From assembly GCF_000787835.1 (NCBI RefSeq), contig NZ_BBPP01000003.1, positions 281,890 through 345,889 on the forward strand: a DNA stretch of 64,000 bases, read 5' to 3'. A program made the position numbers and the translations under genes. Below are positions 12,718 to 25,925 of this stretch, one piece after another; positions within the stretch are counted from its first letter, which is position 1, and every line of letters begins with the position of its first letter. This stretch comes from Streptacidiphilus melanogenes. GTDB taxonomy: Bacteria > Actinomycetota > Actinomycetes > Streptomycetales > Streptomycetaceae. Below the pieces are notes generated by a model, which was not told the origin of the DNA, searched no databases, and was given only the letters and a program-made list of their open reading frames with translations.

Positions 12718-13194
12718 ATGCAGCAGCTGAACGGCAGACCCGGAGCGCGACGCCTTGCGCTGCCCCGCGCACGGCCCCGTCGAAGGCCCCGACCCCAGGG
12801 CGCGCTGCTCCTGCTGTGGCGCGTCGCCGCCGTCTTCTTCCTGGCGTTCTCCTCGGTGTCCGCCGCCTTCCAGGCCGCGTCGTCGGTCGAAGGCGGCCTG
12901 GGCGGCCCGGGAGCTGCCCTCGGCACGGACGCCGTCGTCCTGGGAGCGGCCGCGGTCGTCGTCGCGGTGACCGCTCGACGAGAGGCGCGTCTGGGGGTGG
13001 CCGTGGTGGCGGCCGTCCAGCTCGCCGCCGTCGCGACGGCGCGGGAGGCGGGCGGCCTCTCTCTTGTCGGGCCCGGCGACAACGGGGAGCAGGTCATCCG
13101 GCTCCTGTGCGGCGGAGCCGCCGCGGTGGTGAGCCTGGCGCTGCTCGCGTGGCTCGACGGGCGCGAGAAGGGTGCGTCCGGCCAGGGCGCCTGA
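12718..13194 (+). CDS. small membrane protein, 158 aa
   Basis: Start ATG at 12718 after ACGGAGG. A strongly basic N-terminus (Arg-rich, about 1-27) precedes four predicted hydrophobic helices: LLLLWRVAAVFFLAF, DAVVLGAAAVVVAV, LGVAVVAAVQLAAVA and a C-terminal AAAVVSLALLAWL. It looks like a conserved small integral membrane protein of unknown role. The extreme Arg content of the first 27 residues may be a positively charged topogenic tail. Confidence 0.7.
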   Translation: MQQLNGRPGARRLALPRARPRRRPRPQGALLLLWRVAAVFFLAFSSVSAAFQAASSVEGGLGGPGAALGTDAVVLGAAAVVVAVTARREARLGVAVVAAVQLAAVATAREAGGLSLVGPGDNGEQVIRLLCGGAAAVVSLALLAWLDGREKGASGQGA

Positions 13195-13231
13195 ATCCTC
13201 TTCGCGGGGGCGCTCCCCGGCCGCCGCCCGG

Positions 13232-13486
13232 TCAGGGATCGGGCTCGCGCGGGCTGCCCTCCGCCCAGACCTGTTCCAGCGCCTCCATGTGGGTCCAGCA
13301 CTCCCCGCACCGGCGCGGCGGCGTGATCGCGTGGGCGTCGGTGATCGGCCGAGTGACGGTGGTCAAGGGGAAGACGCGGCCGCACAGTGCGGAAGCCGAG
13401 CCCTGCCGGACGACGTGCCAGCTGACGGCCTCCGGTCCGGCCGGATCGGCGGGCCGCTGCCGGGCCCGCAGTTCGTAGCCGCTCAT
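13232..13486 (-). CDS. small hypothetical protein with CxxC motif
   Basis: 84 residues, MSGYELRAR to EPDP. Cys at about 35 (ALCGRVF) and a CGEC pair at about 60-63 with nearby His suggest a single zinc-binding site. Part resembles the streptomycete pattern in which VSWHVVR is followed by CGR and, later, CxxCW. There is no signal peptide or membrane segment. It is followed by a second short minus-strand gene and probably shares its transcript. No function can be assigned. Confidence 0.6.
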   Translation of the reverse strand: MSGYELRARQRPADPAGPEAVSWHVVRQGSASALCGRVFPLTTVTRPITDAHAITPPRRCGECWTHMEALEQVWAEGSPREPDP

Positions 13487-13526
13487 GCCGGCCTCCTGTC
13501 TGTCGCCCGGCTGCCGTCCGCCCGGA

Positions 13527-13763
13527 TCAGTGCCACACCTCGGGGCCGCCGCCCTGCCACTCCACCAGCCGGGGGTCGTCGAGGTCGCCCTCCTCGAGCC
13601 CGGCGCGGCGGATCAGGTCCAGGACGTCCTCCAAGCGGTGCGCGACGCCGACATGCGCGGTGACGATGTCCACGCGCCGGAACGGCTGCTCGTCCGCGTC
13701 GGTGACGGGGTGGACGACGACGTGCGCGGCATGGCCGCGCGTCTCGGGCCGTGGCTCGCTCAT
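13527..13763 (-). CDS. small hypothetical protein, 78 aa
   Basis: MSEPRPETR to PEVWH. Soluble and acidic, with no motif recognised. Codon third positions are GC-rich as in neighbouring genes, and the reading frame is closed by an in-frame stop 40 bp before the next minus-strand gene (13232-13486), with which it probably forms an operon. The region 13764-13811 separates it from the membrane protein upstream. Confidence 0.55.
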   Translation of the reverse strand: MSEPRPETRGHAAHVVVHPVTDADEQPFRRVDIVTAHVGVAHRLEDVLDLIRRAGLEEGDLDDPRLVEWQGGGPEVWH

Positions 13764-13811
13764 ACGTCCAGCCTGCGGCCACCGGCACGCCCGTGCATCC
13801 GCGGCGGCGGC

Positions 13812-14378
13812 TCAGCGGGCCGGTCCTGCGGCGAGCCGCTGCCGCCCGTGGTCGGCCGTCACCTTGGCCAGCTCGTGCCAGAAGGGGACGGCGGTCAGGT
13901 AGGCGCCGAGACCGGACAGGATGCCCAGCGAGAGGTCCACGCTGACGCGTCCCTCCTTGGCCCAGTAGACGTCCTGGAGGTCCAGCAGCAGGGCGAACTC
14001 GTCGGCGATCAGTGCCGTGCCCACGCCGTAGGCCGCGCCGACCCCCGGGTGGCCGGTGAACTTCGCGTCCCCGCGGACGGCGACCAGCCCGACCCCCGCG
14101 AGCGTGGCGATGCCGATGTTGTAGTGGTGCAGATGCCTGCCCCCGGCGGAGATGTTCCCCCATGGCAGCCAGCCCCCGCGGATCCCGTGCGTGATCAGGC
14201 GGACGGCCCCGAACGTCACACCGAACGACAGCCACGTCGCCAGCAGCGACCGCTGGACGGGGGAGGTGTGCCGGTCCAAGGTCCCCCGCCAGCGAGCCGG
14301 CAGGCTCGAACCGGCAGAGTGCTCCTGCGCCCCGGGCGCACCCGATCGCCGCCGGTCGTCCCCGGCCCCGTCCGCCAT
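13812..14378 (-). CDS. membrane protein, 188 aa
   Basis: Start ATG at 14376-14378, after GGGAGG. A hydrophilic N-terminus (~45 residues) is followed by hydrophobic segments LLATWLSFGVTFGAV, IGIATLAGVGLVAV, and two later ones around YGVGTALIADEFALLL and LGILSGLGAYL. The HHYNIGI stretch between the first two helices is distinctive and recurs in an uncharacterised actinobacterial membrane family. Polar and charged residues within the helices (D, E, H) suggest more than a passive protein, but no function is known. Confidence 0.7.
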   Translation of the reverse strand: MADGAGDDRRRSGAPGAQEHSAGSSLPARWRGTLDRHTSPVQRSLLATWLSFGVTFGAVRLITHGIRGGWLPWGNISAGGRHLHHYNIGIATLAGVGLVAVRGDAKFTGHPGVGAAYGVGTALIADEFALLLDLQDVYWAKEGRVSVDLSLGILSGLGAYLTAVPFWHELAKVTADHGRQRLAAGPAR

Positions 14379-14751
14379 GACGCCTCCCTGTACGCGCGGG
14401 CATGCCCTGCTCCGATCGTCCCCCCACCCGCACGGATCCGCCCACGTACCCGGGCCCTCCTGCCACCTGCGCCTCCGCCTCGGCGTCGCGCGGCGTCGAG
14501 ACCCGCGAAGGGGTGCCGTGGGTACAGGGTGAGGCCGGGAATCACCTCGCCGTGTACCGCCACCTGGCTGACGCTGCGTCAAAGACGAGTGTCGTCGGAC
14601 CGACGGCGCGCCGGAGGCCGCGCATGATGGCGGGACGAGAGGCGGCCGTCCTCCGATGAGGGTGCCGTCTCCCGTTCGGCGCCGACCGGTCGGCGTCCCG
14701 GCCGCGGCCTCCGCCCAGGAACAAGGCTTCCGCCCAGGAACAAGGGGTGTC
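14379..14751. other. gene-free divergent promoter region with 19-bp direct repeat
   Basis: 373 bases between the minus-strand membrane gene and the M23 gene. CCGCCCAGGAACAAGG occurs at 14711-14726 and again at 14730-14745, a 19-bp period. The second copy (AACAAGGGGTGTC) lies directly before the M23 start and supplies its ribosome-binding purines. No convincing ORF, promoter pair or RNA gene is seen in the rest. Confidence 0.6.
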
Positions 14752-15987
14752 ATGCATCGCCTGATCAGTCGCATGCTCAGCGTGACTCTGACAGCCCTGA
14801 CGGTGGCGGCGACGGCGGTGGCGCCCGCCCACGGCGGCGTGCCGCGCGCCCTGCCGCCGGGCACCGCGTTCACCCCGCTCACCGCCTCGCTGATCACCAC
14901 GCCCGCACCGGTGAAGGCGGTGGACGGAAGGATCCACCTCTCCTACGAGCTGTTCGTCACCGACGCCGTGCCGGCGCCGGTCCGGCTCGACCGGGTCACG
15001 ATCCGCGACGCCCGCACCCACCGCGTGCTCGCGTCGCTGAGCGGCGGCACGCTCGCCTCGTCCGCCAACCCCGTCGGGAACCTGCCGCCCGGCGAGGGCA
15101 CGGACCTGGCGCGGACCATGCCCCACCCGCCCGTCGTCCGCAGCTCCACGCAACTGGTCGTGTGGATCGACGTGGCGCTCGCCGCGTCGACGCGCCTGTC
15201 AGGACAGGTCGAGCACGAGCTCGACGGAGCGCTCCTGCTCCCGTCCGGGGGGTCGCCGTTCCGGGAGACCGTGGCCCGTACCCCGCTCGCAGCGCGGGCG
15301 CCGCTCGACCTGCTGGCGCCGGTCCGCCCCGGCACCTGGTACGTGAGCGAGGGCTGCTGCGGCAACACCCACCACCGGCGCGGCCTCGCGCCGGTCAACG
15401 GGGTCCTGGACGTTCCCCAGCGGTTCGCCGTCGACTGGTTCAGGGTGGGGCGCGGGAACCGGACCTGGGAGGGCGACCCTGGCAGGCTGACCAGCTATCT
15501 GAGCTTCCGCCAGCCCGTGGCGGCCGCGGCGGGAGGGCGGGTCGTCGAGGTGCAGGACGGGATCGCGGACAATCCGCCGCCGGTGCCGCCCACCGTCCCG
15601 CCGATCCAGGACACCGTCGGCAACCACGTGACCCTGCAGGTGGCCCCGGGCCTCTACCTCCTGTACGCGCACCTGGAACGTGGGTCCGTCAAGGTCCGGT
15701 ACGGGCAGCGGGTGGCGCCGGGGCAGACACTCGGCCTGATCGGCAACAGCGGCAACTCGACCACTCCGCACCTGCACTTCCAGGTGATGACGACGCGTGA
15801 GTTCTTCCCGACCGACAGTCCGCCGTTCACCTTCCGCAGCTTCGTCCTGCTCGGTCAGGTGAGGCCGCGGATCTGGGACGACAACCTGGGCCTGCAACCG
15901 ACCGGTGTGCTGCCGGTCGCTCCGTCGCCCTTCCAGGGTCGCCACCGCGACGAGATGCCCCTGGACCGCGAGGTCATCCGGTTCTGA
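14752..15987 (+). CDS. secreted M23-like metallopeptidase
   Basis: 411 residues from ATG at 14752; the in-frame extension to 14656 would cover the direct repeat and lacks a signal-like start. A signal peptide (MHRLISRMLSV, hydrophobic run, PAHGG) exports the protein. An N-terminal β-sandwich-like region (about 30-190) precedes an M23/LasA fold. The second zinc motif HLHFQV and the partner YAHLERGS are present, and RFAVD holds the Asp of the first zinc site, but the canonical His is Arg. Related QRFAxDW proteins share this, so it may be a distinct subfamily or a non-catalytic wall-binding protein. Confidence 0.8.
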   Translation: MHRLISRMLSVTLTALTVAATAVAPAHGGVPRALPPGTAFTPLTASLITTPAPVKAVDGRIHLSYELFVTDAVPAPVRLDRVTIRDARTHRVLASLSGGTLASSANPVGNLPPGEGTDLARTMPHPPVVRSSTQLVVWIDVALAASTRLSGQVEHELDGALLLPSGGSPFRETVARTPLAARAPLDLLAPVRPGTWYVSEGCCGNTHHRRGLAPVNGVLDVPQRFAVDWFRVGRGNRTWEGDPGRLTSYLSFRQPVAAAAGGRVVEVQDGIADNPPPVPPTVPPIQDTVGNHVTLQVAPGLYLLYAHLERGSVKVRYGQRVAPGQTLGLIGNSGNSTTPHLHFQVMTTREFFPTDSPPFTFRSFVLLGQVRPRIWDDNLGLQPTGVLPVAPSPFQGRHRDEMPLDREVIRF

Positions 15988-15999
15988 GCTCCGCCGCGG

Positions 16000-17280
16000 T
16001 CAGCCCATGCGCTCGTCGAGGAGGCGGACGAGCTTGCCGGTGCGCGGGTTGACCGTCAGGTCCGCGGCGGTGACCCACTCCACCGCGAGGGGGTGGATGA
16101 GGCCGCGGCGGACGTGGTCGTCGAACATCGGGCGGGTCGTGGTGAGGCGGTGGGCGATGTCGTGCGCCAGTGCCTGGCGGTCCCCTTCGCCCGGGGTGGT
16201 GTCGGCGAGACGAAGGACGAGTTCGTCGAGTTCGTCGCGGTGGCGCAGCACGATCTGGAGGTCCGCGACCCGGTGGTGCGGGTCGGCCGCGGCGACGACG
16301 GCGCGCAGGTCCTCCAGGTAGATGGTGACCGGGCCGACGCGGGCGCCCTCCTCCGAACGGCCGAGCAGGCGGAACCGGCGCCGGGGGAAGTCCGTCCACT
16401 CCGCCAGGTCGCCGACCGGGTAGCGGATGACCGGCATCAGCCGACGGGCGAGGTCCGTGGCGACCACGCGGCCGGGGCGGCCGGGTTCCACGATCGGTTC
16501 GCCGGTGACCGGGTCCAGCAGCTCGACGATCTTGTCCGTGGTGAAGACCTGGTGGATCCGCGCGTCGGACTCGCCCGACACCGGTCCGGCCAGGACGCCC
16601 GCGTCGACGCTGGCGTAGCCGATGGAGCGGACCTGGGCGGCGGGGAAGGCCCGTGCCAGCAGGGCGAGTTGGTCGCCGTAGAAGGCCTCGCCGCTGAAGA
16701 GGACCAGCCGCACGTCCGGCAGCGTGCCCGGCCCGGCGACGACCTCGCGGGCCAGTCGGCACAGCGAGGTGGGCGGGGCGGCGAGCACGGTGGCGGAGAA
16801 GTCGCGCAGGGTGGAGATGGTGGTGTCCAGCGGCGCGGCGCCGCCGATCGGCAGCTGGACGGTGGGGATCGGCGCTTCCTGGAGCAGGTTGAGCGTGAAG
16901 ACGAAGCTGGAGTACAGCTCACCGGCGTAGAAGAGGTTGGCCACGCGGTCGCCCGGGAGCAGCCCGGCGGCGGGCAGGCCCTCGCCGAAGCGGTGGCACA
17001 TCGCACGCCACTCCTCGCGGGTGTAGCGGGAGACGCGCGGCGCGCCGGTGGTGCCGCCGGTCTTGAAGACGATCCCGTCGTCGTGGGGCCCGGTCAGGAC
17101 CTGGCTGTCGGTGGTGCCGTGGGCCTGCCAGAAGGCCGTGTGGTCGACCAGGGGAAGGGCCGTCAGATCGGCGGTCGCGGCGGGCAGACCGGCGTAGAGG
17201 TCGCGGTAGAAGGGCGAGTGCTGCCGCACGAAGGCGATCAGGTCCGCCGTCGTCCGGTCATGGTTCTGCTGAGGGTTCAT
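16000..17280 (-). CDS. PaaK-like AMP-forming acyl-CoA ligase
   Basis: 426 residues, similar in length to phenylacetate-CoA ligases. The ATP/AMP phosphate-binding loop is TGGTTGAPR at about 74-82; IRYPVGDLAEW later holds the conserved Asp-containing A-domain motif, and TGKLVRLL near the C-terminus holds the probable catalytic Lys. It should activate a carboxylic acid as acyl-AMP and pass it to CoA or a carrier. It is last in the operon behind the LuxC/LuxE-like fusion gene, separated from it by 84 bp. The substrate cannot be read from sequence. Confidence 0.82.
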   Translation of the reverse strand: MNPQQNHDRTTADLIAFVRQHSPFYRDLYAGLPAATADLTALPLVDHTAFWQAHGTTDSQVLTGPHDDGIVFKTGGTTGAPRVSRYTREEWRAMCHRFGEGLPAAGLLPGDRVANLFYAGELYSSFVFTLNLLQEAPIPTVQLPIGGAAPLDTTISTLRDFSATVLAAPPTSLCRLAREVVAGPGTLPDVRLVLFSGEAFYGDQLALLARAFPAAQVRSIGYASVDAGVLAGPVSGESDARIHQVFTTDKIVELLDPVTGEPIVEPGRPGRVVATDLARRLMPVIRYPVGDLAEWTDFPRRRFRLLGRSEEGARVGPVTIYLEDLRAVVAAADPHHRVADLQIVLRHRDELDELVLRLADTTPGEGDRQALAHDIAHRLTTTRPMFDDHVRRGLIHPLAVEWVTAADLTVNPRTGKLVRLLDERMG

Positions 17281-17364
17281 CGGTCCGGGTCTCGTCCGTG
17301 TCGTCTCTGGGATGGGTCGGCGCCCGGGTCGGACGGCACAGGGCCGGTCCGACCCGGGCGGCGG

Positions 17365-19893
17365 TCAGCGGTTGCGGATCCGGCGCTCGACCACGGCCGG
17401 GAGCTTGCCGCTCGCGGCGGTGCGCTCGAAGGCGTCCGAGGCGAGGCGCTCCACGAACAGGTCCACCAGCTGGTCCCGCACCACCGCGGCGGCGAGCTCG
17501 GGGTAGCCGTCCAGGAAGGCCTGACGTTCGGCGTCCGCAGACAGGTGCTCCCCGGCCCCGGCCTCGGCCTCCAGCCGCACGGTCAGCGACTCGCTGGTGG
17601 CGTCCTCGTCCAGCACGATCTGCAGGGCGCCCCGGTGGCCCAGGGACTCCTCGGCCACGGCCACGAACCGGCGGACGTTGAGGAAGTGGCTGCCGCTGCG
17701 GAAGATGTCCCCGAACCGGCCCAGCAGCTCGAAGCGGGGCGTGCGACGGCCGCACGGGCAGTCGCCGGGCGTCCAGCGGCCCAGGTCGCCGATCTCGTAG
17801 CGGTCCAGGCGCTGCCCGCGCCGGGTGTGCGCGGTGAAGACCAGGCGGCCGGTCTCGCCGACGGCGGCGGGACGGTCCTCGTCCAGGGCGAGGATCTCCA
17901 GCGTCTGCAGGCCGCTGAACAGGTGGTGCACCCGGTCCGGCGCGTCCGGGCACTGGTAGCCCAGTGGCCCGGCGTCGACGCTGCCGTAGGCGGCCGAGCG
18001 GATCACCTCGACGCCGAACTCGGTGCGCAGCCAGTCCCGCTGCGCCTGCGGGAAGTGCTCGCCGCCGTAGAACACCTTCCGCACGCCGCGGTAGGCGCGC
18101 AGCTCGGCTTCACCGGCCGCGAAGACGCGCAGCAGGTAGTTGGGCATGCCGAACAGGGTGTTCACCCCGTGCTCGACGATCGAGCGGGCGACCAGCGCAT
18201 GGTCCTCCTGCGCGGCCATCGGGTACTGCACGGCCTGCAGGGTCTCCAGCACCGAGAAGAAGCTGGAGAAGCCGCCGTAGAGCAGACCGCCGAAGAAGAG
18301 GTTCATCGCGCGGTCGGTGCGGACGTCGAAGCCCGCCGCGAGCAGCCCCTCGGCGCCGGAGCGCATGTGCTCGTGGTAGTCGTCCCAGGTGAACGCGGAC
18401 AGCTTCGGCGCGCCGGAGCTGCCGCCGCTGCGGAAGAACACCTCCGCGCGGCTGAGGTCGTCCTGGAGCAGCTCGAAGTCGCTCTTGGAGACCACCTCGA
18501 CCTTCGGCGGCGCGAGTTCGCGGGCCGCGACCAGGTCGTCCAGGCACGCGTCGCCGGTGAACCTGTCGTCCAGCTGGACGTCGACGCGGCGGCTGTAGCG
18601 CTGGAGCGCGTAGACGCCGTCGTGCGGCTCGCCGTCGTAGCTGTCCAGCATCCGGCCCGGCACGGTGACGCGCTGCGCGCCCGCGGCGAGCACCGCCTGG
18701 GCCAGTTGCGCGGTGTCGGTGCGCGAGGCGCCGAGGCCGACCGTCTGCAGGTAGCGGCGCATCGGCCGCAGCACGTCCACGATCCGCGTGCGCGGCAGCG
18801 GTTTCACCCACACCGTGCGGTGCAGCGGGGAGGCGCGCAGCGCGCTGCGGGTGTCGGCCAGCACCCGCCAGGTGCCGTCGGCGCCCTCGTGCACCCGGGT
18901 CAGCCCCAGATGCTCCTCCAGCCGGGCGACCAGCACGGTGTTGCTGATCTCGGCGCGCTCCAGCAGCTCCGGGCGGGCCGGGTCGAGCGTGGCCACGACC
19001 TCGCCGAGGACGGCGGCGAACCGCTCGGCGAACGCGAAGACCTGCTCGTCGTCCTCGGTGTCGAGGTAGACGACCTGGGGGCTGGAGCAGGCCTGCTGGT
19101 CCAGGCGGCAGATGTCCTCGGCGATGCCGCGCAGCGTCTCCGGCGAGGACCAGGCGTCCTTTGTCAGATAGCCGAAGGACAGCTTGGGACCCCAGTCGAC
19201 CAGTCGGCAGCCCGGCGGCACCATGGCCGCCACCCCGGCGATGGCCTCCTCGCCGCCCCAGGCGGCGACCGCGTCGGCCTGCTCGCACATGCGGCGCAGC
19301 CAGTCGGTGCGGCTGGAGGGGAAGCCCAGCACGATGGTGCGCGCGGCGATCAGACCGCTCGGATCCAGCTCCGCGAGCTCGGCCAGCAGCAGCTGGGTGA
19401 ACCGCGAACCACCGCTGGTCTTGGCCGCGTTGACGTTGCCCGCCAGCAGGCCCTCGACCACGCTGAGCGCGCCCGCGGCCGGGGCGTTGCCCGGAGCGAC
19501 GTGGACCAGCAGGCCCACGGGAAGCCAGCCCTCGAAGATCTCGCGGCGGAAGTCGAAACGGGCCAGCCGGCCCGGGTCGATCCCGCCCAGTTCACGCATG
19601 AGCTTGGTCTCCAGCGGCTCCCGGCCCAGCGCCTCGGCCACGTCGTGCAGAGTGCGCGCGGCCTCGTGCGCGGGCACGCCCGACGCCTCCAACTCGGCCG
19701 CCAGACACTGCGACTGGGGGCTGGCGGAGTCGGCCAGGGCGGTGGAGAGGCGGTCACAGGCCGCCAGCACGACCAGCGGGCTGAGCTGCTGCCCGAGGGC
19801 GGTGCGCACGTCCTCGCCGAGCCGGTCCAGTCGCTTGTCGGCCTCGGCGTCGTCCACCCAGGCGCCCTGCCAGTAGTGCTGATCGATCGTCAT
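17365..19893 (-). CDS. fusion of LuxC-like acyl reductase and LuxE/PaaK-like AMP-binding domain
   Basis: 842 residues from ATG at 19891-19893, which overlaps the LuxE-like stop as ATGA. Residues ~1-440 are an acyl-CoA/acyl-protein reductase (LuxC) domain: the nucleotide-fold stretch APGNAPAAGALS (about 133-144) and the catalytic cysteine in DQQACSSPQ (Cys269). Residues ~450-842 form an AMP-dependent ligase of the LuxE/PaaK type with SGGSSGAPK at about 489-497. LuxC reduces a protein- or CoA-bound acyl group to the aldehyde with NADPH. Fusion to its own ligase suggests direct acid-to-aldehyde reduction; the product is unknown. No luxAB lies nearby. Confidence 0.85.
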   Translation of the reverse strand: MTIDQHYWQGAWVDDAEADKRLDRLGEDVRTALGQQLSPLVVLAACDRLSTALADSASPQSQCLAAELEASGVPAHEAARTLHDVAEALGREPLETKLMRELGGIDPGRLARFDFRREIFEGWLPVGLLVHVAPGNAPAAGALSVVEGLLAGNVNAAKTSGGSRFTQLLLAELAELDPSGLIAARTIVLGFPSSRTDWLRRMCEQADAVAAWGGEEAIAGVAAMVPPGCRLVDWGPKLSFGYLTKDAWSSPETLRGIAEDICRLDQQACSSPQVVYLDTEDDEQVFAFAERFAAVLGEVVATLDPARPELLERAEISNTVLVARLEEHLGLTRVHEGADGTWRVLADTRSALRASPLHRTVWVKPLPRTRIVDVLRPMRRYLQTVGLGASRTDTAQLAQAVLAAGAQRVTVPGRMLDSYDGEPHDGVYALQRYSRRVDVQLDDRFTGDACLDDLVAARELAPPKVEVVSKSDFELLQDDLSRAEVFFRSGGSSGAPKLSAFTWDDYHEHMRSGAEGLLAAGFDVRTDRAMNLFFGGLLYGGFSSFFSVLETLQAVQYPMAAQEDHALVARSIVEHGVNTLFGMPNYLLRVFAAGEAELRAYRGVRKVFYGGEHFPQAQRDWLRTEFGVEVIRSAAYGSVDAGPLGYQCPDAPDRVHHLFSGLQTLEILALDEDRPAAVGETGRLVFTAHTRRGQRLDRYEIGDLGRWTPGDCPCGRRTPRFELLGRFGDIFRSGSHFLNVRRFVAVAEESLGHRGALQIVLDEDATSESLTVRLEAEAGAGEHLSADAERQAFLDGYPELAAAVVRDQLVDLFVERLASDAFERTAASGKLPAVVERRIRNR

Positions 19894-21062
19894 GACGTTC
19901 CCTTGAGCAGTTCGGCGGCGGCGACGGCACAGCTGCGGTTGCGGCTGACCCCGGCCCGGCCGTGGACGGCGAACCAGGGGGTGGGCAGCCCACAGCCGCA
20001 CTCCTCGGGGGAGTGCTGCGAGACCAGGTCGCCCATGAGCACCGACTGAGCCGGCACCGAGGTGATGTAGGGGGAGACGAACTGGGCGTAGCCGCGCTCC
20101 CCGTAGGGCAGCGGCTCCAGCGTGCCCACGTCGCGGACCAGCATCCGCGACCAGGTCGGCACGTGCAGACGGTGGTTGGCGCACTCCATGTACAGCACCG
20201 AGTGCTCGACCGCGCCGTAGCCGTCACGGATCCGCTCGTCGGGGATGCCCAGCTGGTCGTGGATGCGCCGGTAGAGCTCCGGCTTGGCGACCTGCTTGTC
20301 GGCGTGCCCCTTCCAGCCGCCGCCGAAGACGACCAGCGAGCGGGGGTCCAACTGCACCGGGGGCAGGCCCAGGTCGCGCATCCGGTCCAGGGTGAACGAC
20401 AAGAACGCGGGGAAGCCCAGGATGCGCACCGGGGCGCCCTCCTCGGCGAAGCGCAGCAGCGCCCGCGCGCAGCCGAACGGGTCGAACTCGTGGCTCGACC
20501 CGGTGTGCTTGAGCGCGTACTCCACGGAGCGCACCGGGGCGAAGTGGCACAGGTACTCGTCCGTGAACGAGGTGCCGAGGTTCAGGCCGGGCCGGGGCTG
20601 GTAGTTGGAGAGCAGGTAGTTGACCGGCTCGTCCTCGCCCAGCCAGCCGTAGGAGTCGAAGACCCGCGCGACCATCCGCTGCCCGTTGCGCAGTGTCCAC
20701 TGGTCGAAGAACATCTGCGACTTCTGCCCGGTGGTCCCGGACGAGGTGACGTGCAGGGCGACGTCCTGCTCCGGGACGGAGACGACCTCGTGCGCCTTGA
20801 AGAAGTTGGCGTGCACGTACGGCAGCCGGTGCAGCTCGTCGATGCCGCCGAGCGGCGCTCCGCCGGTGGGCCCGGCTTCGAGAAGGCGGGCGAAGAACGG
20901 CGACCTGGCCGCATGCCAGGCGTTCGACTCGTTCATGGCCCGGACGAACAGCTCGTCCAGCTCGGGGCCGACCGCGTACGGCTCGGCGATGTCGCACAGC
21001 TGCTGGACGTGCGCGAGCGCGGCCGGGTCCGGGACCTCGACCGGTTCAAGATACTGGCTCAC
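19890..21062 (-). CDS. LuxE-like acyl-protein synthetase
   Basis: 390 residues from GTG at 21060-21062, chosen because it overlaps the GNAT stop as GTGA; the longer reading to 21101 lies inside that gene. The AMP-binding loop is SSGTTGQKS at about 107-115. A single Cys 13 residues from the end (RNRSCAVAAAEL) matches the place of the acylated cysteine in LuxE of luminous bacteria (inference by position). LuxE activates a fatty acid as acyl-AMP, moves the acyl group to its own Cys and hands it to LuxC. The next gene encodes the LuxC-like fusion, supporting that pairing. Confidence 0.85.
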   Translation of the reverse strand: MSQYLEPVEVPDPAALAHVQQLCDIAEPYAVGPELDELFVRAMNESNAWHAARSPFFARLLEAGPTGGAPLGGIDELHRLPYVHANFFKAHEVVSVPEQDVALHVTSSGTTGQKSQMFFDQWTLRNGQRMVARVFDSYGWLGEDEPVNYLLSNYQPRPGLNLGTSFTDEYLCHFAPVRSVEYALKHTGSSHEFDPFGCARALLRFAEEGAPVRILGFPAFLSFTLDRMRDLGLPPVQLDPRSLVVFGGGWKGHADKQVAKPELYRRIHDQLGIPDERIRDGYGAVEHSVLYMECANHRLHVPTWSRMLVRDVGTLEPLPYGERGYAQFVSPYITSVPAQSVLMGDLVSQHSPEECGCGLPTPWFAVHGRAGVSRNRSCAVAAAELLKGTS

Positions 21063-22204
21063 TGGAAAATCCCGTGGGTGTTGAGGTACTGCTGCTTCCA
21101 CAGCTCGATGTACTGCTCGGTGAAGGGGCGGAAGGCGGCGTCGATGGCGAGGCCGCGGAAGTCGAGGGGCTTCATGGTGCGCGCCATCACCACGTAGTCG
21201 CGGTAGCCCTCGCCCTCCCGGCGCATCGCCGGGTAGGCGGCGGCCGGCAGGAACCCGTTGCCGAGGAGCAGGGTCAGGTCGGCGTAGGCGTCCAGCGGCA
21301 GCAGCATCTCGATGTGCAGCGCGCCGTGGTCGGACAGGGTGCTGATCACCGCGTCGAGGTCGCGGCCGCGCTCCGACAGCCCGGGAGCCGTGGCGACCAG
21401 GGCGCAGTAGCCGTCACCCCGGTTGAGCTGGGCGTAGACCTCGAAACCGCCGTCCTCGGCCGTCAGCAGCACGTTGGGTGTGTGGAACGGGTAGAACCGC
21501 GCCTCGGGGTCGGGCACCGCCTCGGCGAACCGGCGCTTGACGAACGCGGGCGCGTCCACGAGCTCGAAGCCCGATGCGGCGGCGGGCCCGACGGGGTCGG
21601 GCGAGGTCCGCTCGTCCACCAGGGGCCGTGGCGCGTCGGGCAGGCCGACGGTCTCGTGCACCGCCTCGACCAGGCCGCCCAGCCCGGCCGGCACCCGGGG
21701 CACCGGCAGGCGCTGCTCGAGCACGCCGGGGCGGTGACGGGCCAACAGCACCATCGTCTCGTGGCGGTCGGACTTGCGCAGGTTCGGGAAGACGCCGAGC
21801 GCCCGGAACCCGCTCTGCAGGCAGATCCGCTGCGGTGCCGTCGAGTTGGTGCGCGCCGTGGCGTAGACGGAGTCCACCGTCTCCTCGTCGAGCAGCCGGT
21901 CGCTGAGCTCGCGCACCGCTTCCCGGGCGATCCCGCCGCCGCGGGCGTCGGGGTGGACGGCCAGCCCCTGGAGCTTGCCGAGCCGCTCCTGCGGCGAGAC
22001 GGTGCCGAGAATCGAGGCGACCAGCTGCTGCTGCGGGCCGGTCCGGGCCACCAGCCAGGTGGTCGTGGGGGAGTCGATCTCCCGCGCCATCACCTCCCGG
22101 TCGGTGCCGAGAGGCAGGGTGTACGAACTGCCGTAGACCGCCCGATAGAGCGTCAGCAGTTCGTCGATGTCGTCCGTGCAGGCAGCACGGAATTGCGCAG
22201 CCAA
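21059..22204 (-). CDS. GNAT acyltransferase, two-domain
   Basis: 381 residues from a TTG at 22202-22204; a perfect GGGGAGGT lies four to five bases upstream, and no ATG/GTG fits as well. The N-terminal ~140 residues form a GNAT domain with the acetyl-CoA loop (GLAVHPDARGGGIA, about 92-105). The C-terminal half has a possible second GNAT-like fold without the loop. It starts the operon and its stop overlaps the LuxE-like start. It may acylate a substrate or carrier used by the following enzymes, for example an amine made from the aldehyde. That role is speculation from context. Confidence 0.75.
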   Translation of the reverse strand: MAAQFRAACTDDIDELLTLYRAVYGSSYTLPLGTDREVMAREIDSPTTTWLVARTGPQQQLVASILGTVSPQERLGKLQGLAVHPDARGGGIAREAVRELSDRLLDEETVDSVYATARTNSTAPQRICLQSGFRALGVFPNLRKSDRHETMVLLARHRPGVLEQRLPVPRVPAGLGGLVEAVHETVGLPDAPRPLVDERTSPDPVGPAAASGFELVDAPAFVKRRFAEAVPDPEARFYPFHTPNVLLTAEDGGFEVYAQLNRGDGYCALVATAPGLSERGRDLDAVISTLSDHGALHIEMLLPLDAYADLTLLLGNGFLPAAAYPAMRREGEGYRDYVVMARTMKPLDFRGLAIDAAFRPFTEQYIELWKQQYLNTHGIFQ

Positions 22205-22586: not shown

Positions 22587-24104
22587 TCAGGATCTGTGGG
22601 TGCCCCCTTGCTCAGCGTGCCCGCGGGCAGCCGCGACGCCGCTCGGGCTGAGCAGGGTGCGGGCGATGCTGTCGGCCTGACGGCGGATCTCGGGGATCGC
22701 GGTGGATTCGAGGAGGTCGCCGCGGCGCAGACTGCCCAGGGTCCACAGCGGGGCCCGCGTCCGACCGGGGGCCGGGAGGAGCGCGCCGGAGGAGCCGGTG
22801 CGGAAGCCGCCGAGCGGGGCGGCCTGGGCGAAGCCGGAGCGGAGCAGGGAGGTGACGAGGGGGTCGTCGACGCGGGTGAGGTCGGTGCGCGAGCCGGTGC
22901 AGTTCACCACCGCCGTCACGGACAGCGTGCGGGCGTCGTCGAGGACGACGCGGATGCCGTCGGAGGTGGCCGTGGCCTGCGTGACGGTGCCCCGGCCGAG
23001 GCTGACCCGGCCGGCGTCGACGGCGGCCTGGAGTGCTTCCGCGCTGCTCGGCGGGATCCGGTGGCGGTGGGTCTCCCAGTGCCGGAGGTCCTCGCGCATG
23101 AACCGGGCCTGGTCGTCGGGGGAGAGCCGCTGCCACAGCGCGGTGGTGTCCGCCCGCAGGCTGTCCATGCCCGGACGCCAGTCGCCGTGCGTCCGGCGGC
23201 ACCGCGACAGGTGACTCAGCACCGCCCGGCGCAGTTCGGCGAGGCCGGTCGGGCCCTCCAGGTCGGGGCGGTCCGCCGGTGGCACGAGCGGGTCGCTGTG
23301 GCGCTGGGGGAGGAGCCCGTGCCGGGAAACCGCGTGGACGACCCGGCCCGGCCGTTGGAGGGTGTGGGCGATGTCGACCATCGTCAGGCCGGTGCCGACC
23401 AGCAGCACGTCGCCGGTGTCGCCGACAGCGGCGCTCAGCCCCGCGACCCACGGATCCGGGAAGAACCCGACCGCGTCGCGGAGCGCGGGCGGCGCCCAGC
23501 TGTCGTCGGGCGGGAAGTTGCCCAGCGCGAGCACGACGGCGTGGACGCTGAGAACCTGCCCGGTGCCGAAGGTCAGTTCCACCGGGGCCGCGCGGTCGTC
23601 GTCGCGGTCACCGTCGACATGACCGACGGAGACGACACGCTCGTGCAGGCGCAGCAGCTGGGGTGCGCCGGGCAGTGCTGCCGCCTCGTCCAGGCTGTCG
23701 GCGAGGTAGCGGCCGTAGCGGCCGCGGGGGACGAAGCCGTCGCCGTGTCCGTGCCGGGAGAGCCACTGCACGAAGTGACCGGGCTCGTCGACATGGGCGC
23801 TCATGTTGGTGGCCGGGACGTTCAGCAAGTGGTGCGGTTCGTTGGTGGAGAAGGCCAGGCCGAGCCCGGTCGGGGCCGGGTCGATCAGCCAGACGCGGCA
23901 CGCGGGCGCCCGGTGCTCGGCGGCGTTGCGCAGCAGGCGCATCGCCGTCAGCGTGCCTGCCGCCCCCGCGCCGACGACGGCGATGTCGCGCACGGTCGCG
24001 GAGCGGCCCGAACGGGCGGAGCGGGTGGGATCCGTGGAGTGCGGGGAGCGCGTGGAGTGCGGTGCCGAGACGCGTCGCGCCTCGGTTGTGAGGGTCTCGG
24101 CCAT
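22587..24104 (-). CDS. FAD/NAD(P)-binding oxidoreductase (pyridine nucleotide-disulphide-like)
   Basis: 505 residues from ATG at 24102-24104, after AGGAAG. After a ~38-residue Thr/Ser/Arg-rich leader comes the dinucleotide motif DIAVVGAGAAGTLTA (about 39-53). GLAFSTNEPHHLLNVPA and a second nucleotide motif DVLLVGTGLTMVDIA follow, typical of the FAD_NAD_binding_9 family (HcpQ/MdpC-like). Such proteins are flavoenzymes of mostly unknown substrate. It lies 34 bp downstream of a cysteine-dioxygenase gene in the same direction, so a linked sulphur-related role is possible but unproven. Confidence 0.8.
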   Translation of the reverse strand: MAETLTTEARRVSAPHSTRSPHSTDPTRSARSGRSATVRDIAVVGAGAAGTLTAMRLLRNAAEHRAPACRVWLIDPAPTGLGLAFSTNEPHHLLNVPATNMSAHVDEPGHFVQWLSRHGHGDGFVPRGRYGRYLADSLDEAAALPGAPQLLRLHERVVSVGHVDGDRDDDRAAPVELTFGTGQVLSVHAVVLALGNFPPDDSWAPPALRDAVGFFPDPWVAGLSAAVGDTGDVLLVGTGLTMVDIAHTLQRPGRVVHAVSRHGLLPQRHSDPLVPPADRPDLEGPTGLAELRRAVLSHLSRCRRTHGDWRPGMDSLRADTTALWQRLSPDDQARFMREDLRHWETHRHRIPPSSAEALQAAVDAGRVSLGRGTVTQATATSDGIRVVLDDARTLSVTAVVNCTGSRTDLTRVDDPLVTSLLRSGFAQAAPLGGFRTGSSGALLPAPGRTRAPLWTLGSLRRGDLLESTAIPEIRRQADSIARTLLSPSGVAAARGHAEQGGTHRS

Positions 24105-24138
24105 GCCGTTCGTCTTCCTGGTGCGGGGTGGTCCGCCG

Positions 24139-24738
24139 TCACGTCTCGTCGTGCGGCGCGGGGTAGGTCCTGCGGACGCTGGTGCCCAGCCGGGATATGT
24201 CCGCGCCGTAGATGTGCAGCGAGATCGCCTTGGAGGAGCCGGTGTTGCACACCTGGTGGATGTCGCCGGGCGGTGCGATCGCCGAGAGCGCGCCGGTGGG
24301 GTTGACCAGGCTGCGGTCGCGGACCAGTTCCGTCGCTCCGCCGTCACCGGTGAGCCGGTAGCGGTGCTCGGTCTCCTGGCCCTGGTGGACTCCCGCGACG
24401 CACCAGCAGACGTGGTCGTGGATCGGGGTTCGCTGGCCGGGCAGCCAGACCAGCGCAACGACCGAGAAGCTGCCGTCGGGCTCCCCGTGCAGCAGGTGCT
24501 GCCGGTAGGTCTGCGGATCCCCCTCCTGCTGCGCGGCGGTCAGCAGGTCGGGCCGGCCGAGCGAAGGTCTGAGCACCTCGGCCACCTGGCGCGCCGTCAT
24601 GAGGGGCGTCAGGTCGCGTCGGAGGACCTCCCGGATCCCGGAGGCGAGGTCGACGATCCACGGCGTCGTCGTGACGCCGGTCGCTTCGTATGCGGCGGAA
24701 GAAGGCACGGGCCCACTGTGCGCGCCGTGACGGGACAC
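24139..24738 (-). CDS. cysteine dioxygenase-family protein
   Basis: 199 residues from GTG at 24736-24738; the start is uncertain because no clear ribosome-binding site precedes it. The cupin iron ligands are visible: HDH in PIHDHVCWCVAG (about 98-110) and a later His in GDIHQV. The family oxidises cysteine or related thiols (for example 3-mercaptopropionate) to sulphinates with O2. A LysR gene precedes it by 47 bp and the FAD protein follows it, so the three likely form one transcript. The true thiol substrate is not evident. Confidence 0.82.
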   Translation of the reverse strand: MSRHGAHSGPVPSSAAYEATGVTTTPWIVDLASGIREVLRRDLTPLMTARQVAEVLRPSLGRPDLLTAAQQEGDPQTYRQHLLHGEPDGSFSVVALVWLPGQRTPIHDHVCWCVAGVHQGQETEHRYRLTGDGGATELVRDRSLVNPTGALSAIAPPGDIHQVCNTGSSKAISLHIYGADISRLGTSVRRTYPAPHDET

Positions 24739-24743
24739 GTCCA

Positions 24744-24778
24744 ACAAGCGTTGCTTGTGCCCTGCCAAGCGCTGCTTA
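24744..24778. promoter_or_regulatory. paired inverted repeats between LysR and cysteine dioxygenase genes
   Basis: Two similar 13-bp elements, CAAGCGTTGCTTG (24745-24757, six-base arms if flanks 24744 and 24758 are added) and CAAGCGCTGCTTA (24766-24778). They are spaced 21 bp apart, two helical turns on the same DNA face. They fill the 47-bp gap upstream of the dioxygenase start and look like a tandem operator, possibly for the LysR encoded upstream. Confidence 0.5.
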
Positions 24779-24785
24779 TGCGGCG

Positions 24786-25694
24786 TCAGGCGCTCGCGTG
24801 GGAACGGGCGACGTCGCGGAGCACGTCCAGGACCAGCGCGATCGACGGGATATGGGTGTGCTCGCGCAGCGCGTAGGCCGCGATCCTGCGGCGCGTGAGC
24901 GGCTCCACCGGGCGCGCGGCGACCTTGTCGTGGCGCAGGAAGCCCAGCACGAGACCGGGCATCAGGGCCACGCCCGCACCCACGGAGACCAGGTTCTGCA
25001 CGGCCAGGTTGTCGTCCGTCGCGAAGACGACGTCCGGAGCGAACCCCTGCTCCGCGCAGGCGTACAGCAGGTTCGCCTGACATCGCGGACAGCCCGCGAT
25101 CCAGCGTTCGGAGGCCAGGTCGCCCAACCGGACCGCGCTGTGCCGGGCGGCCGGATGGCCCGCCGGGAGCAGCGCCGTCACGGGGTCCTCCATGAGCGGG
25201 TACTCGACCAGGTCGGCGGCGTCGCCGACCTGGAACCCGGGATAGCTGAAGGCCAGCGCGATGTCGCAGTCCCCCTGCGGGACCCGGCGCAGCGAACCGG
25301 GAGGCTCGTCCTCCTGCAACTCGATCCGGATCCCGGGGTGTTCCGCCAGCAGGCGGGCGATCACAGCCGGCACCAGGGTGGCGTTGGCGCTCGGGAACGC
25401 GCAGATCCGCACCCGTCCCAGCTGCAGCCTGGCAAGCGCCCCCAGTTGCTGCTCCGCCGCCGACAGCTGATCGAGGATCAGCCCGGTGTGCCGGGCCAGC
25501 GCCTGGCCCGCCTCCGTCAGTCTCAGCCTGCGTCCCGCCCGGACGAACAGCGGCATGCCGACACTGCGCTCCAACGCCTGCATCTGCTGGGTGATCGCGG
25601 GCTGGGTGCAGCCCAGGGACCGTGCGGCGGCGGAGAATGTGCCGGCGTTCACCACTTCGTGAAATGTGGCGAGATGGCGTGAGTCAAGCACCAT
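24786..25694 (-). CDS. LysR-family regulator
   Basis: 302 residues, normal for the family, from ATG at 25692-25694. The HTH spans LATFHEVVNAGTFSAAARSL then TQPAITQQMQALE. The effector domain includes a CPRC pair around residue 200 (GCPRCQANLLYACAEQ), giving three closely spaced cysteines. That is unusual and could act as a thiol or metal sensor. Its position directly upstream of a cysteine dioxygenase gene makes thiol sensing attractive (inference). An alternative start farther upstream (25754) lacks a ribosome-binding site. Confidence 0.85.
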   Translation of the reverse strand: MVLDSRHLATFHEVVNAGTFSAAARSLGCTQPAITQQMQALERSVGMPLFVRAGRRLRLTEAGQALARHTGLILDQLSAAEQQLGALARLQLGRVRICAFPSANATLVPAVIARLLAEHPGIRIELQEDEPPGSLRRVPQGDCDIALAFSYPGFQVGDAADLVEYPLMEDPVTALLPAGHPAARHSAVRLGDLASERWIAGCPRCQANLLYACAEQGFAPDVVFATDDNLAVQNLVSVGAGVALMPGLVLGFLRHDKVAARPVEPLTRRRIAAYALREHTHIPSIALVLDVLRDVARSHASA

Positions 25695-25925
25695 CGGATC
25701 ATAAGCGGAAGTTGGGGGCTGGAAACCCGCGACGGGCGCTCTCTGCGCGAACACGCGGACCCTGCGCCCGGATCGGCGACGGTCCGACGCCAGGCCGGCG
25801 TACGCAGGAGTCCCGGCGCGCGCCCGGCACCCACCGTCATCACTGAATCCGCCGCCACCGGGTAGAAGCGCTGCGGGTGCGGTCGACGCCGCCCCGTTTC
25901 AGGTACTTGCCCAGGGGAGGGTGGC

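Follow-up and report, generated by a model that had tools for sequence, protein, structure and literature searches.

A leupABCD-type gene cassette in Streptacidiphilus melanogenes that probably makes a leupeptin-like peptide aldehyde

LuxE and LuxC are known from fatty-acid reduction, and EhpF and EhpG of griseoluteic acid biosynthesis, a PaaK-like adenylating enzyme and a LuxC-like reductase, act on a phenazine carboxylate; to our knowledge, the EhpF/EhpG system includes no amide ligases. Leupeptin has been known from actinomycetes since 1969. Here we examine a stretch of 64,000 nucleotides from Streptacidiphilus melanogenes ('the window'; contig NZ_BBPP01000003.1, positions 281,890 to 345,889), in which positions 16000-22204 hold four minus-strand genes, for a tandem GNAT, for a LuxE, for a fusion of LuxC with a PaaK-type ligase, and for a separate PaaK-type AMP-ligase. 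The described system that this set resembles is the leupABCD cluster of Klebsiella michiganensis/oxytoca and Xenorhabdus, which makes leupeptin (acetyl-Leu-Leu-argininal), as stated in excerpts of PMC8283571, PMC11480411 and PMC11212599. In an excerpt of PMC11480411, the leup operon makes leupeptin and a lysine analogue in K. oxytoca; in one of PMC11212599, which cites Li et al. 2020, Xenorhabdus uses separate AMP-dependent ligases, together with a reductase, to make leupeptin.

We consider it very likely that the window holds an actinobacterial leupABCD-type cassette that would make, without a nonribosomal peptide synthetase (NRPS), an N-acylated short peptide aldehyde, i.e., a protease inhibitor of the leupeptin kind. 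The evidence for such a cassette is its gene set, its homology to leup genes, two conserved cysteines and its conservation as a unit; from leup precedent and the enzyme families we infer the chemical steps, the assignment of ligases to bonds and the residues that are joined. The features, all on the minus strand, are as follows.

21059..22204, minus strand: tandem GNAT N-acyltransferase (leupD-like), TTG start, 381 amino acids
19890..21062, minus strand: LuxE-like acyl-protein synthetase (leupA-like), GTG start, 390 amino acids
17365..19893, minus strand: LuxC reductase and PaaK-type AMP-ligase in one frame (leupB-like), 842 amino acids
16000..17280, minus strand: separate PaaK-type AMP-ligase (leupC-like), 426 amino acids
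21059..21062, minus strand: GTGA overlap of the GNAT stop and the LuxE start, read from the sequence
19890..19893, minus strand: ATGA overlap of the LuxE stop and the LuxC-ligase start, read from the sequence
18589..19692, minus strand: LuxC domain, residues 68-435 (PF05893, 284 bits)
17368..18558, minus strand: fused PaaK-type ligase domain, residues 446-842 (domain search)
19929..19931, minus strand: codon of LuxE Cys378, putative acyl acceptor (Cys in 97/97 LuxE rows)
19087..19089, minus strand: codon of LuxC Cys269, putative acyl-thioester site (alignment to 7xc6_A; Cys in 100/100 rows)

The sequence and domain searches bear out what the initial annotation of this locus had described, i.e., the gene set, the 4-bp overlaps joining its first three genes, and two cysteines, a C-terminal one in LuxE, which is Cys378, and LuxC Cys269, the latter of which pairs with the cysteine of the DQQAC motif in luminous LuxC in the alignment to 7xc6_A. 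The LuxC-ligase gene and the separate PaaK-like gene lie 84 bp apart, and third-position GC is 0.92-0.95 in the four genes. In Pfam searches, the LuxE protein scores 90 bits and the GNAT protein 33 bits. The AMP-binding region of the fusion (residues 490-686) reaches 29.1 bits, just below the cut-off of 29.9, and that of the separate ligase only 19 bits, but the latter scores 62 bits against the solved PaaK 2y4o; both ligases are PaaK-like, yet fall under the Pfam and NCBIfam cut-offs. The four proteins gave no match to condensation, carrier or thioester-reductase domains in Pfam and NCBIfam scans, which distinguishes them from the NRPS systems for peptide aldehydes such as antipain and flavopeptin, whose products, released by a reductase domain according to a portion of PMC10548850, are of the kind expected here.

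The GNAT had also been described as a two-domain protein, and its predicted structure does hold two tandem GNAT folds (mean predicted local distance difference test, pLDDT, 86; predicted template-modelling score 0.86). The top-ranked match of this model in the PDB is a tandem GNAT of the clavulanic acid pathway, and because the template-modelling score over both domains is only 0.39, the domains are arranged differently in the two proteins. For LuxE the model is less confident (pLDDT 77); its matches are PaaK-type ligases.

The same block lies on two Salmonella plasmids. Of 398 Pseudomonadota genomes (the centre genome counted), 2 hold the LuxC-ligase fusion, as do 15 of the 392 genomes searched in one family. 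In the 13 loci examined out of these 15, the order is always LuxE, fusion, PaaK, GNAT, which pointed to the leupeptin genes. Excerpts of PMC8283571 locate leupABCD in K. oxytoca CAV1374 by coordinates and list primers whose product is 1,235 bp long. One of the paper's core primers matches 4 of the 392 genomes and was used to trace the genus, in which 2 of 20 genomes hold the fusion. At locus L176, presumably from Klebsiella, the leupA_f and leupB_r sites are exact and 1,235 bp apart, both core primers are exact too, and the gene order is transporter, LuxE, LuxC-ligase, PaaK, GNAT. Locus L177 has the same genes, with two mismatches in leupB_r and with leupA_f not found within three; in one 392-genome sample, none of the leup-type loci showed a primer pair at the published spacing, even with six mismatches allowed.

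The identity between the window and locus L176 is 51% for LuxE, 43% for the ligase domain, 40% for PaaK and 35% for LuxC. Like leupABCD, the window has a LuxE, a LuxC-AMP-ligase fusion, a PaaK-type ligase and a GNAT together, homologous to the leup locus, though for the GNAT only weakly and by profile, and with both cysteines present. It differs in that its GNAT gene stands first rather than last and encodes 381 rather than 305 amino acids, in that it has no transporter, and in two residues, i.e., Gln for Glu at LuxE155 and Pro for His at LuxC236. The statement in the initial annotation that no characterised pathway has this set was thus wrong: the set is that of leupABCD, and the fusion belongs to an already described biosynthetic family, an outcome that had been named beforehand as refuting.

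Several observations were made on the Salmonella copies and sequences like them. The leup-type genes of conjugative Salmonella enterica plasmids lie at 10470-16633 of L034 (CP054717.1) and 10470-16629 of L035 (CP053580.1); an upstream open reading frame of 121 amino acids resembles part of the 419-residue Klebsiella transporter. The copy of CP053580.1 has no annotated GNAT, and the GNAT match there is broken into two pieces that lie in different frames. With the Salmonella block as query, E. coli genomes gave only matches that cover about 1% of it. The 31.7-kb record MT835565.1, which is filed under phages (Bacteriophage sp., human faeces), includes at 12819-14105 a LuxC-like stretch with 28% identity to the Salmonella fusion.

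Among 100 relatives, a full or near-full-length fusion is present in 17 genomes including the window's own, and these fusions form two groups, at 77-93% and 56-59% identity; all 19 loci from the 16 other genomes hold the four genes. A scan of GTDB contigs with the ligase domain gave 288 relatives, some of them from the same genomes as the former sample, and in the best 80, which were examined, 76 loci have the complete block, mostly in two actinobacterial subfamilies. This is the recurrence in unrelated actinobacteria that had been named as a check. At L091 and L115 the PaaK gene is missing where the contig ends. Two metagenome-assembled genomes (L082, L086) have the cassette with no adjacent LuxE, and each has, on another contig, a LuxE 56% identical to that of the window.

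The window's subfamily makes up 18 of the 80 loci and has the four genes in every one, in hosts that include Streptacidiphilus, Kitasatospora, Streptantibioticus, Streptomyces, Crossiella, Allokutzneria, Kutzneria, Amycolatopsis and others, several of them Pseudonocardiaceae. Because PaaK is on the strand of the fusion in 7 of these loci and on the opposite strand in 11, the set evidently stays together through rearrangement. Nor are the ligases simply carried along with LuxC, because LuxE and LuxC also occur free of any ligase on one Streptomyces europaeiscabiei plasmid and one Chloroflexota plasmid. In the former (NZ_CP109155.1; L036:7886-16344), LuxE and LuxC are 49% and 48% identical to those of the window and adjoin YcaO, metallo-beta-lactamase-fold and DUF692 genes, so that the locus resembles a cluster for a ribosomally synthesized and post-translationally modified peptide, and its peptide may be reduced to an aldehyde. 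In the latter (L037:10868-13269), the LuxE-LuxC pair has neither ligases nor a GNAT beside it.

Trees of 43 rows separate three clades for LuxE, namely a gammaproteobacterial one, the window group (support 91/86) and a second actinobacterial group (99/97) marked by a major facilitator superfamily (MFS) gene. The same three clades appear for PaaK, where support for the window group is 100/100 without the divergent L073 and 81/48 with it. In a quick GNAT tree, the window group again forms a clade (90) and the gammaproteobacterial rows stand apart; the MFS group does not form one clade. An MFS gene is present in 57 of 58 second-group loci; in the window group, one exceeds 150 bits in 1 of 18 loci, or is found in 3 of 18 at a looser limit. 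This sister cassette (e.g., that of Streptomyces roseus ATCC 31245, L107) has the same four genes, in the order PaaK-MFS-GNAT-LuxE-LuxC/ligase, and identities between second-group loci and the window are 64-67% for LuxE, 55-62% for the LuxC domain, 52-57% for the ligase domain, 49-58% for PaaK and 37-42% for GNAT. It is set apart from the window by its MFS gene, by Glu in most rows at LuxE155 and His at LuxC236, and by forming a clade of its own for both LuxE and PaaK. Cassettes of the two actinobacterial groups occur together in three strains: S. sp. RPT161 (L061, L075), S. ferralitis (L060, L077) and S. rubrisoli (L062, L125).

By analogy with the leup pathway, the GNAT would N-acylate the first amino acid, and one amide bond each would be formed by the two ligase units, i.e., the stand-alone PaaK-type enzyme and the domain attached to LuxC, after adenylation of a carboxylate. 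LuxE would then adenylate the C-terminal carboxylate and load it on Cys378, and LuxC would receive the acyl group on Cys269 and reduce it with NAD(P)H to the aldehyde. The earlier proposals hold up in part, in that LuxE and LuxC are likely to reduce an acid to an aldehyde, activation and joining probably involve several carboxylates, and the GNAT probably acylates an amine; the aldehyde, which had been regarded as an intermediate, is most likely the end group of the product instead.

Four points weigh against this assignment. The 96.9% profile match of the window GNAT to LeupD covers the N-terminal domain only and might arise between any two GNATs. At an E-value of 1e-3, neither the transporter of L176 nor the MFS protein of L031 has a match in the window; a transporter is present in the Klebsiella locus and is perhaps not defining for cassettes of this type. 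From the window-type loci, no product has been seen. Finally, the window-type substrate may differ from that of the leup enzymes, because its rows have Gln at LuxE155 and Pro at LuxC236 in place of Glu and His.

The last point bears on whether the cassette makes leupeptin itself, a narrower version of the same assignment that we regard as unlikely, although it is the strongest of the alternatives. The residue tables comprise 97 LuxE rows, 100 rows each of the fusion and of PaaK, and 99 GNAT rows. L071, L082 and L086 are absent from the LuxE set because of a split frame or because the locus lacks LuxE, L133 is absent from the GNAT set because of a split frame, and the PaaK rows of L091 and L115 are in fact ligase domains of the fusion. 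LuxE155 is Gln in 18/18 window-type rows and Glu in 16/16 gammaproteobacterial and 57/61 second-group rows; LuxC236, which sits in a GxK segment ahead of the catalytic Cys, is Pro in 19/19 window-type rows and His in 16/16 gammaproteobacterial and 61/61 second-group rows. We take the segment around LuxE155 to be the A4 substrate motif, going by general AMP-ligase biology rather than by structure, and LuxE155 is likely to be a pocket residue. By our own unpublished standard for a leupeptin producer (Glu at LuxE155 with His at LuxC236), S. roseus agrees with the leup genes and the window does not. The markers are blurred by exceptions: L125, the second cassette of S. rubrisoli, is one of four second-group rows with Gln at LuxE155, so that this residue alone does not separate the two cassettes of that strain, and Pro at LuxC236 recurs in luminous LuxC and in the S. 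europaeiscabiei LuxC. Leupeptin as the product would also be in keeping with the gene-by-gene homology to leupABCD for three genes (weak for the GNAT) and with the many residues common to all groups, but the three strains with both subfamilies would then be redundant. Because the marker residues differ, with these exceptions, we file the window as a leup-type cassette and not as a leupeptin producer; the product of its subfamily is probably a congener. A more specific proposal, which we put forward tentatively and as somewhat less probable than not, is that the subfamily makes new N-acyl peptide aldehydes, independent of NRPS and ending in a residue other than arginine, alongside a leupeptin or leupeptin-like compound in the two-cassette strains.

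Still less probable is a fatty-aldehyde or other non-peptide pathway, in which a fatty or aromatic acid would be reduced by LuxE and LuxC and turned into an amide by the ligases and GNAT. The precedent for LuxE and LuxC in fatty-acid reduction, the aryl acids taken by solved PaaK relatives and the Pro at LuxC236 of luminous LuxC all fit it. The luminous enzymes (PDB 7xc6) do share homologous domains and probably also the chemistry, in which LuxE activates the acid and LuxC reduces it; the window, however, has additional ligases and a GNAT and falls far under the curated cut-offs, its LuxE scoring 63 bits against the luminous LuxE model (cut-off 550) as opposed to 51% identity to the gene in leupA position. 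A luminous operon would also have luxA/luxB and luxD beside luxC/luxE, and, as the initial annotation had it, no luciferase was found, here among the five neighbours (13.8-25.8 kb) and nine further window proteins scanned, the rest of the genome lying outside the search. Fatty-aldehyde formation was dropped since the set matches the leup genes far better than the lux genes. Two other systems were considered and dropped: the LuxC/LuxE of flagellin glycan islands, which, in the part of PMC4875605 that describes them, also carry acyl carrier proteins and glycosyltransferases, and ester formation by BagE/FevW, as outlined in an excerpt of PMC6692506. That the cassette is a decayed or silent remnant without function, as the lack of a matching transporter might suggest, is highly improbable given its four open frames, dN/dS (NG86) of 0.09-0.24 to the nearest relative and the complete block in all 18 subfamily loci; against two more distant relatives dN/dS is 0.18-0.61, highest for the GNAT.

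The genes adjoining the cassette at 22587-25754 (FAD/NAD(P)-binding, PF13454; cysteine-dioxygenase-like; LysR) were rejected as partners, having matched, among the compared loci, only beside the closest copy, L038, which is on the same contig as L057 (S. neutrinimicus). A coarse neighbour test found no further gene family in more than 3 of 19 window-type loci, and can miss conserved neighbours: its rough gene caller recovered even LuxE in only 9 of 19 loci and took PaaK and the fusion together as one. Downstream, at 13812-14900, is an open reading frame with no Pfam match, relatives of which (76-80%) adjoin second-group cassettes in L054 and L055.

The sister cassette bears on the origin of leupeptin in Streptomyces. 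S. roseus ATCC 31245, which carries it with open frames, is used as a leupeptin producer in an excerpt of PMC10548850 (2023), where Streptomyces leupeptin is listed as NRPS-made. In the S. roseus draft genome (G891), no thioester-reductase exceeds the curated cut-off (best 66.5 vs 213 bits), and none of the eight matches listed is on the four contigs with condensation domains; no peptide-aldehyde NRPS served as a positive control in this search, which could have missed a diverged reductase or one in an assembly gap. In the window's own genome, the same search gave two matches above 260 bits. Because the sister cassette is present and no thioester-reductase exceeds the cut-off in the draft, S. 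roseus leupeptin may, judging by these genes, not be NRPS-made, contrary to recent papers. In the best-ranked open-access papers from the literature searches, no assignment of Streptomyces leupeptin to such a cassette was seen; Li et al. 2020 may discuss it.

Although the pathway itself is already known, the window adds a member of an actinobacterial subfamily, the product of which is probably a relative of leupeptin. To judge by the 288 relatives of its ligase domain in GTDB contigs, the best 80 of which were examined, the cassette looks common, and because it needs no carrier protein, NRPS-based mining would overlook it. The leup-type cassette of S. roseus makes the genes behind the original leupeptin directly testable, and the window subfamily is a candidate source of peptide aldehydes that is, as far as the literature was searched, unexplored.

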